Assembly (NCBI RefSeq): GCF_014200045.1
Contig: NZ_JACHOV010000009.1
Coordinates: 1 to 64,000 of the forward strand
DNA from: Rhizorhapis suberifaciens
Lineage (GTDB): Bacteria > Pseudomonadota > Alphaproteobacteria > Sphingomonadales > Sphingomonadaceae
Direction: 5' to 3'
Length of the DNA stretch: 64,000 bases
Within the stretch, counting starts at the first letter, position 1, and the number at the start of each line of letters is the position of its first letter. The notes beneath the pieces were generated by a model. That model worked only from the letters and a program-made list of their open reading frames with translations, was not told the DNA's origin and made no database searches. A program made the position numbers and the translations under genes. Positions 4,421 through 15,148 of the stretch are shown in pieces.

Positions 4421-4912
4421 ATGCGGCTTTCGAGCCTTGCCGATTATGCCATTGTCGTAATGTCCGCCATTGCGCGGCACGACGGCGACGTGCGCTTTTC
4501 AGCGACCTGCCTGGCCGATGAGACGGGCGTTCCTCTGCCCACCGCGCAAAAGCTTATGGGGCGGCTTGCGAGTGCCGGCCTGCTCGAATCGGCGCGAGGC
4601 ACCGGCGGGGGATTCGCCCTTGCCCGACCGGCTGACCAGATAAGTCTTGCCGATATAGTCGAGGCAGTGGAAGGGCCCATCGCGATGACGGCCTGCATCG
4701 AAGAAACTCGCCACGAATGCGCGCTGGAGGAAAATTGTCGCGTCCGCCCGCACTGGGGTGCGGTCAATGGAGCCATCCGCGGCGCGCTGGCGGGAGTGAC
4801 GCTCGAAAGTCTCGCACAAGAATTCCCCGACTCCGTTCGTGTCGAGCCAAGTCGAGACACGTCCGCGGCAAGCCAAACGTCCCTCGACTTCGCTCGGGAT
4901 GAACGGATTTAA
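4421..4912 (+). CDS. Rrf2-family SUF operon regulator with a repeat-encoded tail
   Basis: A 163-residue transcription factor of the Rrf2/IscR group, the SUF-associated type. A winged helix-turn-helix fills the first 70 residues ([19 protein letters not shown]). Three cysteines at 92, 100 and 106 match the Fe-S ligand region of IscR, so it probably senses Fe-S status. The ATG at 4421 has AGGAG six bases upstream. The gene heads the SUF operon, two bases before sufB. From about residue 138 the protein is encoded by a 74-base palindromic repeat (4833-4906), which also places the stop. The family is usually near 140-145 residues, so this tail is an addition and is unlikely to be needed for function. 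Confidence 0.9.
4833..4906 (+). repeat. dispersed palindromic repeat, copy A
   Basis: A 74-base element bounded by CCGTTC and GAACGG, with internal GTGTCGA/TCGAGACAC and TCCC/GGGA arms. An inverted, closely similar copy is at 14384-14454. This copy is translated as the tail of the SUF regulator and ends nine bases before the sufB start, so its hairpins could also affect read-through into sufB. Confidence 0.85.
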
Positions 4913-4914
4913 CT

Positions 4915-6399
4915 ATGACGAATGAAACCACCACCGTCCGTAATGCCGAAGCGCTCGCCGCCGCCGAAAAGGCGTCGAAATATGAATTCGGCTGGACCAG
5001 CGAGATCGAACAGGATTTCGCTCCAAAGGGCCTGAACGAAGACACCGTCCGTTTTATTTCGGCCAAGAAGAACGAGCCGGAATGGATGCTGGAATGGCGC
5101 CTGAAGGCCTACCGCCTGTGGCTGACGAAGACCGCTCCTGACTGGGCCAAGCTCAACGTGCCCCCCATCGATTATCAGGAGGCCTATTATTATGCGGAGC
5201 CCAAGCAGAAGGCTTCGCTCAAGTCGCTGGATGAACTCGACCCTGAGATTTTGGCGGTTTACCAGAAGCTTGGCATTCCGCTGGAGGAGCAGAAAGTCCT
5301 CGCCGGTGTAGAAGGCGCGCGCAAAGTAGCGGTCGATGCGGTATTCGACAGCGTTTCGGTGGCCACGACCTTTCGCAAGGAACTGGCTGAGGCGGGGGTC
5401 ATCTTCCTGTCGATCAGCGAGGCGATCCGCGAGTATCCGGAGCTGGTGAAGAAATGGCTCGGCAAGGTTGTGCCCCAGCATGACAATTATTTTGCGACCC
5501 TCAATAGCGCGGTCTTTTCGGACGGAACCTTCGTCTACATTCCGGAGGGTGTGCGCTGCCCAATGGAGTTGAGCACCTATTTCCGTATCAATGCGGAAAA
5601 TACCGGGCAGTTCGAACGCACGCTGATCATCGCGGACAAGGGTAGTTACGTTTCCTACCTCGAGGGCTGCACAGCGCCGCAGCGGGACGAGAACCAGCTT
5701 CACGCCGCCATTGTCGAGCTCATCGCGCTGGAGGATGCGGAGATCAAATATTCGACCGTCCAGAACTGGTATCCCGGCGACGCGCAGGGCAAGGGCGGCA
5801 TCTATAATTTCGTCACCAAGCGCGGCCTCTGCCAGGGCAAGAACAGCAAGATCAGCTGGACGCAGGTGGAAACGGGCAGCGCCATTACCTGGAAATATCC
5901 AAGCTGCGTGCTGGCGGGCGAGAACAGCGTGGGCGAATTCTATTCGGTCGCTCTCACGAATAATTACCAGCAGGCCGATACCGGCACGAAGATGATCCAC
6001 CTCGGCAAGAACAGCCGCTCCACGATCATTTCCAAGGGGATCAGCGCGGGTAAGTCGAACAACACCTATCGCGGCCTGGTCCGCGTCGGTCCAACGGCGG
6101 AGAACGTCCGCAACTTCACCCAGTGCGACAGCCTTTTGCTGGGCGACCAATGCGGGGCGCACACCGTGCCCTATATCGAGGTCAAGAACCCCAGCGCGCA
6201 GATCGAGCATGAGGCGACGACGAGCAAGATCTCCGACGACCAGCTTTTCTACGCGATGCAGCGCGGGCTGGATACCGAAGCGGCGGTGTCGCTGATCGTC
6301 AATGGCTTTGCGAAGGAAGTGCTGCAGCAGCTGCCGATGGAGTTTGCGGTCGAGGCGCAAAAGCTGCTGGGCATTTCGCTTGAGGGGAGCGTGGGATGA
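4915..6399 (+). CDS. sufB: Fe-S cluster assembly scaffold SufB
   Basis: At 494 residues this is a full-length SufB, part of the cytoplasmic SufBCD complex that builds Fe-S clusters from SufS-derived sulfur. Recognisable segments include [14 protein letters not shown] near residue 56, [18 protein letters not shown] in the beta-helix core, [15 protein letters not shown], and the C-terminal [20 protein letters not shown]. It starts two bases after the regulator and is followed by an 80-base spacer with a small hairpin before sufC. A 502-codon open frame on the opposite strand is a codon-bias shadow. Confidence 0.98.
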
Positions 6400-6418
6400 C
6401 GAGCCGCCCCACCCCAAT

Positions 6419-6439
6419 CCCTCCCCTGAAGGGGAAGGG
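6419..6439. repeat. short GC-rich hairpin between sufB and sufC
   Basis: CCCTCCCC, a TGAA loop, then GGGGAAGGG. It belongs to the same CCCCT/AGGGG hairpin class seen at 12994-13015 and 55661-55690. In the middle of an operon it may stabilise the upstream mRNA or lower expression of what follows. This role is inferred. Confidence 0.6.
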
Positions 6440-6479
6440 TTGAAAGAGTTGAGATATTCGTACTTTTAGGATGATCTAA

Positions 6480-14047: not shown

Positions 14048-14326
14048 ATGTCAGCACGGATTTTCCAGCGCCCCAAAAATGCCATGCAGTCTGGCCGCGC
14101 AAATACCGACAAATGGATGCTGGAGTTCGAACCCCAGGATGCGCAGCGTCCCGATCCGCTGACCGGCTGGGCCGGTTCGGCTGATACCCGTCGGCAGCTG
14201 AAGCTGATGTTCCCGACGCTGGAGGCGGCCAAGGCTTATGCGGAACGTGAAGGGATTGCCTATCACGTCGTCCCCGCGCCCGAACGAAAGCTGAAGATTC
14301 AGGCTTATGCGGATAATTTCCGGTAA
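14048..14326 (+). CDS. NADH dehydrogenase complex I accessory subunit (NDUFS4-like)
   Basis: A 92-residue protein of the ETC complex I subunit family, the alphaproteobacterial relative of mitochondrial NDUFS4 (18 kDa/AQDQ subunit). Conserved features are ARIFQRPKNAMQSG at the N-terminus, W-x-L-E-F-E, the GWAGSADTRRQ segment and AYAEREGIAYHV. It should sit on the peripheral arm of complex I near the NADH site. The ATG at 14048 gives the family N-terminus; the open frame starts earlier, inside hrpB. It stands away from the main nuo operon. Confidence 0.92.
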   Translation: MSARIFQRPKNAMQSGRANTDKWMLEFEPQDAQRPDPLTGWAGSADTRRQLKLMFPTLEAAKAYAEREGIAYHVVPAPERKLKIQAYADNFR

Positions 14327-14383: not shown

Positions 14384-14454
14384 CCGTTTGTCCCGAGCAA
14401 GTCGAGGGAGTTGACCTTGGTGCGACGTGTCTCGACTTGGTTCGACACGAACGG
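14384..14454 (-). repeat. dispersed palindromic repeat, copy B
   Basis: This 71-base element is the reverse complement of a close relative of copy A at 4833-4906, with the same boundaries (CCGTTT/GAACGG) and the same GTGTCGA...TCGAGACACG core. It lies between two convergent genes, the more usual place for such elements. Confidence 0.85.
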
Positions 14455-14530: not shown

Positions 14531-15148
14531 TCAAAAAACCGCAGCCACCAGCTTGGCGAAAGCATCCGCACGATGGCTCATGGCGTGCTTTTTCTCGGGC
14601 TCCATTTCGCCAAAACTGATGTCATAGCCGTTGGGTTGGAAGATCGGATCATAGCCAAAGCCCTGTGTGCCCCGTGGAGGCCAGGTGATGACGCCATTAA
14701 CGCGGCCCTCAAATGCCTCCACATGTCCGTCCGGCCAGGCAAGCGCCAAAGCGCAGACAAAATGGGCATCATGGCCGATCTCAGGCCCCTTCGCGCGAAG
14801 ATTTTCCCAGACCAGCCGCATCGCGAAACCGAAATCCTTGTCCGGTCCTGCCCAACGGGCGGAGAATATGCCCGGCTCATTATTCAGCGCCTCAACGCAC
14901 AAGCCGCTGTCATCAGCCAGAGCAGGAAGGCCGGACAGATCTGCCGCCTGCAGCGCTTTGAGCTCCGCATTGGCGATGAAGGTGGTGCCGGTTTCCGCCG
15001 GTTCAGGCAGGCCAAGCGTGGAAGCCGAGACCGGCTGCACACCATAAGGGTTCAACAATGCCCTGATCTCTCGCACCTTGCCTGCATTGTGGCTGGCGAT
15101 GCAGAGCTGTCCAGGTTGCAGCTTCCGAATGGCCTGTTCCTCGCTCAC
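14531..15148 (-). CDS. rdgB: XTP/dITP diphosphatase (non-canonical purine NTP phosphatase)
   Basis: A 205-residue HAM1/RdgB protein that removes deaminated purine nucleotides (XTP, dITP) from the pool. The triphosphate-binding [10 protein letters not shown] motif is at the N-terminus, [13 protein letters not shown] carries the metal-binding acids, and the C-terminal FGYDPIF-x-P and SHRADAF motifs are intact. It overlaps rph by four bases, a common pairing in alphaproteobacteria. Confidence 0.97.

Follow-up and report, generated by a model that had tools for sequence, protein, structure and literature searches.

The stretch of DNA analysed here (the window; 64,000 nucleotides from the start of contig NZ_JACHOV010000009.1 of Rhizorhapis suberifaciens) contains a gene for a SUF-system Fe-S assembly regulator of the Rrf2 family (SufR), beginning with the ATG at 4421 and followed by sufB (Table 1). 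The protein passes the curated cut-off of TIGR02944 (121.5 versus 110.65 bits), with the match ending at residue 129, and Cys92, Cys100 and Cys106 are invariant across 16 homologues. The end of the gene is occupied by a palindromic repeat of 74 nt consisting of two inverted arms. The first-pass annotation had derived the last 25 residues of the regulator and its stop codon from this repeat; we find that the repeat supplies codons 139-162 in full and codon 138 in part, and that Ile163, which is encoded by the flank, and the TAA lie outside it. The stop used by relatives, the TGA within ATGA, is present one codon past the window's TAA and is still in the SufR frame; the net insertion therefore kept the frame.

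Table 1. Features at the sufR/sufB junction and the second copy of the repeat within the window
Feature	Position	Strand	Basis or remark
SUF-system Fe-S assembly regulator (Rrf2 family, TIGR02944)	4421..4912	+	163 aa; residues ~1-134 conserved
REP-type palindromic dimer, encoding residues 138 (part) to 162 of the regulator	4833..4906	+	40 or more places in the genome, alignment, covariation
Left arm of the dimer (hairpin)	4833..4861	+	alignment columns 1-29; arm pairs covary
Right arm of the dimer (hairpin, opposite orientation)	4878..4906	+	alignment columns 56-86
TAA stop of the regulator	4910..4912	+	outside the repeat
ATGA: start of sufB and, still in frame with SufR, the overlapping stop	4915..4918	+	read from the sequence
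sufB	4915..6399	+	NF008773, 902.7 bits
Second window copy of the dimer	14384..14454	-	between two convergent genes

In a congener (genome G001, locus L032) the regulator, 93% identical to that of the window, has 136 aa, overlaps sufB through ATGA and carries no repeat, and 225 of 233 distinct SufR/sufB junctions lack this repeat family. The tail is thus not common to all relatives, and the empty site in so similar a regulator, together with the 225 junctions, supports the earlier proposal that the repeat in the window's sufR is an insertion that rewrote the C-terminus of the regulator. No target-site duplication was seen by eye at the insertion. Alignments of solved Rrf2 structures to the regulator stop by residue 138, and AlphaFold2 (16 sequences) gave no secondary structure past residue 134 and a pLDDT of 54-64 at residues 141-163. 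By prediction, the repeat-encoded tail lacks structure and lies outside the Rrf2 fold, so the regulator protein most likely tolerates it.

The second copy in the window, also noticed in the first-pass annotation, is inverted relative to the one in sufR and 84% identical to it (BLAST, E 7e-15). The convergent genes around it are one of ~92 codons (14048-14326, plus strand), for which there was no NCBIfam match, and one encoding an RdgB/HAM1-type NTP pyrophosphatase (14531-15148, minus strand). BLAST against the repeat's own 3.36-Mb genome returned 57 pieces, which fall at 40 or more distinct places (a lower bound, because 40 of the 50 first-look candidates were scored), the weakest independent place having an E value of 0.0017. 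By an ORF heuristic, 19 of 29 copies in this genome fall outside ORFs (10 between ORFs of the same direction, 8 convergent and 1 divergent) and 10 overlap an ORF of at least 75 aa, several of these ORFs being probably spurious. The exact 14-nt core is present in 118 of 298 family genomes, with a maximum of 118 arms per genome.

Aligning 25 copies (19 of them from the own genome and 6 from SufR tails of relatives) revealed conserved ends, CCGTTCG and CGAACGG, a conserved core, TCGAGCGAAGTCGA, that both arms contain, and a spacer that varies. The stem letters differ between the two arms, and the pairing is within each arm. Of 16 arm-hairpin pairs, 9 are changed on both sides, with a covariation of 0.190 versus 0.130 in shuffled alignments (0/500 as high) and 16 cells with both-side changes versus 4.3 in shuffles (0/500). 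The predicted folding energy of the 74-nt RNA is -41.5 kcal/mol (z -6.2; none of 200 shuffles as low), and the minimum-energy fold is one long hairpin. As a conserved structure this long hairpin had no clear excess of covariation (0.093 versus 0.086 shuffled; 65/500). Judged by its copies, arms and covariation, which backs the two arm hairpins and not the long one, the element is a REP-type dimer. A search of Rfam gave only a chance match, to mir-610 (E 0.6, far under the gathering score). An adaptation of the repeat for openness in all six reading frames was unconvincing: the mean was 4.32 open frames versus 3.90 (sd 0.21) in shuffles, and 4 of the 25 copies are open in all six.

SufR loci of relatives came from a family search, which had matches in 289 of 298 genomes (~150 places, among the matches listed, were used), from 80 named loci and from 30 loci of a first search of relatives. 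The total of 243 loci, with some genomes represented twice, gave 242 junctions (L192 has no stop within its stretch) and 233 distinct sequences. The two genes overlap by 4 nt at 131 and by 1 nt at 40 of these 233 junctions. Eight of them carry the window's repeat family in the SufR tail, each with both arms and each read through in frame: L031, which is the window (genus g1), L042 and L213 (g29), L048 (g17), L201 (g102), L218 (g95), L234 (g100) and L250 (g75), seven genera in all. A first scan of the tails for single cores had given nine matches, one of which (L260) was dropped, having one arm, and L047, with a possible decayed element, was left out of the count; the chance level of the scan was 2.25/233 in shuffles and 3/233 upstream. 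In seven of the eight carriers the reading of the repeat begins P(F/L)(V/A/M)xSxVE; the window reads it in another frame, as SVRVEPSRD. By our junction measure, sufB starts at -4, -1 or +2 in the eight carriers.

With 162 SufR rows in the tree, the carrier label needs eight changes for the eight carriers, and in a more careful tree of 41 rows a single carrier clade was rejected (AU p 0.00014) and the starred branches force at least five changes. Because SufR is short, many single branches are weakly supported, and the trees do not divide the changes into gains and losses. As judged from the trees, the window family reached the SufR tail independently in several genera.

The window family is not alone at this spot, where SufR tails of other genomes include, in translated form, at least four further types of palindrome, some of them in congeners. 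GAGCCTGTCGAAG dimers are found in the SufR tails of L137, L166, L070, L171, L181, L170 and L173, CCCCGCCTTCGCGGGG types in L239, L233 and L232 (with variants in L204 and L083), CCCTCCCGC types in L160 and L149, and CCGGCCTTCGCCGG types in L113 and L099. The GAGCCTGTCGAAG type occurs in 9 to 74 exact copies per genome in the six carriers tested, and the CCCCGCCTTCGCGGGG type has 50 to 102 copies in the three g64 genomes tested and a single one in G320. In genus g102 the window family occupies the tail in G172 and the GAGCCTGTCGAAG family in G264 and G223; likewise, in genus g29 the window family is found in G029 and G310 and the GAGCCTGTCGAAG family in G194 and G134. A generic inverted-repeat score of at least 14 was reached at 27 of 233 SufR/sufB junctions versus none of 233 SufR-interior controls. 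In 30 repeat-rich genomes a strong inverted repeat was found at 9/30 SufR ends versus 8/117 ends of four control genes (p 0.0015; control gene-end windows were placed by the longest ORF over the locus centre, and 28 of the 30 TrpA loci were used). Most of the 233 junctions have no palindrome. At a further five loci (L107, L114, L139, L089 and L257) a CTCCGCGTCTCCGCGTGAA-type structured insert follows an early sufR stop; there the sufR-sufB gap is ~118-160 nt and the overlap is broken.

Beyond the sufR/sufB junction, we followed the window family through 40 suf neighbourhoods (640 kb), picked for high copy number except for the carriers G098 and G209. An HMM of the arm, built from the copies and applied at a threshold of 12 bits or more, found 80 arms in these 640 kb of relatives and none in the reversed sequence. 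The family occupies 43 places: 13 at sufD-sufS, 10 at sufT-iscA, 7 at sufR-sufB, 7 upstream of sufR and 6 elsewhere; in the 38 neighbourhoods other than those of G098 and G209, 32 exact arms were observed versus 5.9 expected. The position relative to the stop codon depends on the junction. At sufD-sufS, 12 of 13 copies lie 12-24 nt past the stop, and at sufT-iscA all 10 lie past it, 9 of them within 39 nt; at sufR-sufB all 7 copies are before the stop and in frame. The sole sufD case of the 13 with the repeat before the stop, read as protein, is L289 (G172).

Within the same 30 repeat-rich genomes (29 with NuoD, 28 with TrpA) 31 places lie in the 189 kb of suf operon, and 15 in the 445.6 kb that make up the NuoD, AtpG, TrpA and TrmD regions (ratio 4.9, p 2e-7). 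The enrichment held at p 1e-4 after suf matches were collapsed by genus and junction, a count compiled by hand with the control counts left uncollapsed. Per 100 kb, the rates were 16.4 for the suf operon and 3.5 for its flanks, and 7.3, 1.7, 2.7 and 1.9 for NuoD, AtpG, TrpA and TrmD, respectively. The NuoD region (L314-L342) is also enriched, with 8 places in 109.7 kb, and the suf operon is therefore not unique.

Occlusion of the sufB ribosome site by the repeat was unsupported: neither the Shine-Dalgarno energy (p 0.67) nor the accessibility of the sufB start (p 0.17) differed significantly between the 8 carriers and 121 plain junctions, with start calls limited to ATG, GTG and TTG. In the window itself, the Shine-Dalgarno site of sufB is weaker than that of the congener (-3.3 versus -6.6 kcal/mol). 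The first-pass suggestion that the hairpin could tune sufB expression is neither confirmed nor refuted by these measures. Mobilisation by a Y1 transposase was considered and rejected. Matches to Y1 transposases numbered 0 in the window genome (G000), the same search giving matches in 5 of 14 control genomes, and among 60 relatives Y1 genes were equally rare in repeat-rich (7/30) and repeat-free (5/30) genomes.

The closest described elements are the CGTC-tagged REPs of alphaproteobacteria, which the accessible part of Di Nocera 2013 (PMC3733652) describes as short palindromic units, also found as inverted dimers, located near gene ends and without a dedicated transposase; according to the same text, slightly over 10% of them lie inside ORFs, ORF ends included, with intragenic cases named in E. 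litoralis and S. alaskensis. The window element resembles them in forming inverted dimers and in having no dedicated transposase in its genome. It differs in that base pairs of the arm hairpin take up its inner CGTC/CGTG (the CGT of columns 56-58 with columns 79-81), so that under the supported arm hairpin no unpaired CGTC tag is left at one end, and in that its conserved outer end is CCGTTC/GAACGG and not CCA, a comparison made with the description in PMC3733652. REP/RAYT systems (REPINs) share with it the dispersed hairpin dimers, but no GTAG tag was seen in the window element and its genome has no Y1 transposase. The first-pass comparison with the palindromic elements of Rickettsia (RPE) is apt as a likeness only: an in-frame palindromic repeat read as protein is common to both, but copies of the window family seem to be mostly intergenic, and what the repeat forms here is a tail on a C-terminus, at the junction of two operon genes. 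The E. coli iscR-iscS boundary offers the closest functional parallel, with structured RNA separating an Rrf2 regulator from the Fe-S genes that it heads. In E. coli this RNA is linked to the sRNA RyhB; the palindrome of the window lies within the ORF of the regulator itself, with no known sRNA. Desnoyers, in 2009, reportedly dealt with the role of a REP at that boundary.

We think it probable that a REP-type dimer inserted at the end of sufR and that the overlapping junction put the insert in frame, making it a C-terminal tail. The palindromic dimer would have entered the last sufR codons, just before the sufB junction, where the overlap of the two genes in most relatives suggests, by itself, translational coupling. 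An insert at such a coupled junction would survive if it stayed inside the reading frame and became a protein tail; the repeat may thus be found in frame before the sufR stop because an overlapping, coupled junction leaves no other room. Where a junction has an intergenic gap, as at sufD-sufS and sufT-iscA, the same repeat would settle shortly past the stop. What the insert alters is most likely the mRNA, with a very stable predicted hairpin at the boundary between the regulator and the assembly genes. That all carriers descend from one ancestral insertion followed by many losses is disfavoured and seems to us very improbable: four carriers do have a nearly identical insertion point, LS(S/T)PF, but the AU test speaks against one clade and carriers are scattered among non-carrier congeners. 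We hold it equally improbable that the added peptide has a protein function of its own. The repeat is in frame in all eight carriers and seven of them begin it in the same reading, but the window copy uses another frame, other tails are unrelated in sequence, and conservation is absent.

The insertion at the end of sufR could be neutral or selfish, the tail being dispensable and the site so permissive that any repeat family can land and linger there. To this reading, whose chances we regard as even, belong the variable length of the tail, its lack of alignment and of predicted structure, and the occupation of the same place by unrelated repeats; taken alone, it leaves unexplained why the repeat is also enriched at sufD-sufS and sufT-iscA, where it would sit in a gap and not in a tail. 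It is possible, though rather doubtful, that palindromes at the boundary are instead kept by selection as regulatory hairpins, so that sufR mRNA would outlive sufBCDS, or be translated differently, by analogy with E. coli iscR-iscS. The recurrence of unrelated palindromes at one spot, in excess of both the interior and the control gene ends, and the different families held there by congeners in g102 and g29 are in keeping with such selection. So is the E. coli iscRSUA mRNA, in which, in the portions of PMC6956336 and PMC4169559 available, the iscR part is stabilised and the remainder degraded; in Caulobacter, similarly accessible text (PMC11475020) has iscR heading a single isc-suf operon. Against selection are the many junctions that lack a palindrome and the likeness of the sufB ribosome-site measures in carriers and plain junctions. 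More speculatively still, the SufR/sufB boundary and the other suf junctions might act as a plug-in site, with unrelated mobile palindromes recruited again and again and exchanged as interchangeable RNA hairpins that uncouple the levels of the regulator from those of the assembly genes, convergently with iscR-iscS, and where the overlap would force the frame and create a new tail each time.

Intragenic REPs, including those at ORF ends, have been described before (PMC3733652, in the part available); what appears to be new is their recurrent setting at one junction. In the literature we searched, no account was found of several palindrome types recurring at a single regulator/operon junction, REPs in the suf operon were not found among titles and abstract openings, the accessible portions of PMC12306157 and PMC8910356 held nothing further on the latter, and the peptide strings VRPEPVEG, LSLSKG, FVLSEVE and STSSARTE were not found. 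Intragenic REPs have so far been scattered curiosities; the suf junction, which occurs empty or filled, and filled by one repeat family or another, in some cases among members of a single genus, amounts to a set of replicated natural experiments, and the question of passenger versus RNA control element is therefore directly testable. It also suggests a rule for how a mobile repeat becomes protein: where the junction overlaps, the repeat comes to lie before the stop.

A palindrome of its own, CCCCAATCCCTCCCCTGAAGGGGAAGGG, lies between sufB and sufC in the window (6405-6440) and resembles the CCCTCCCGC-type repeats of other SufR tails.
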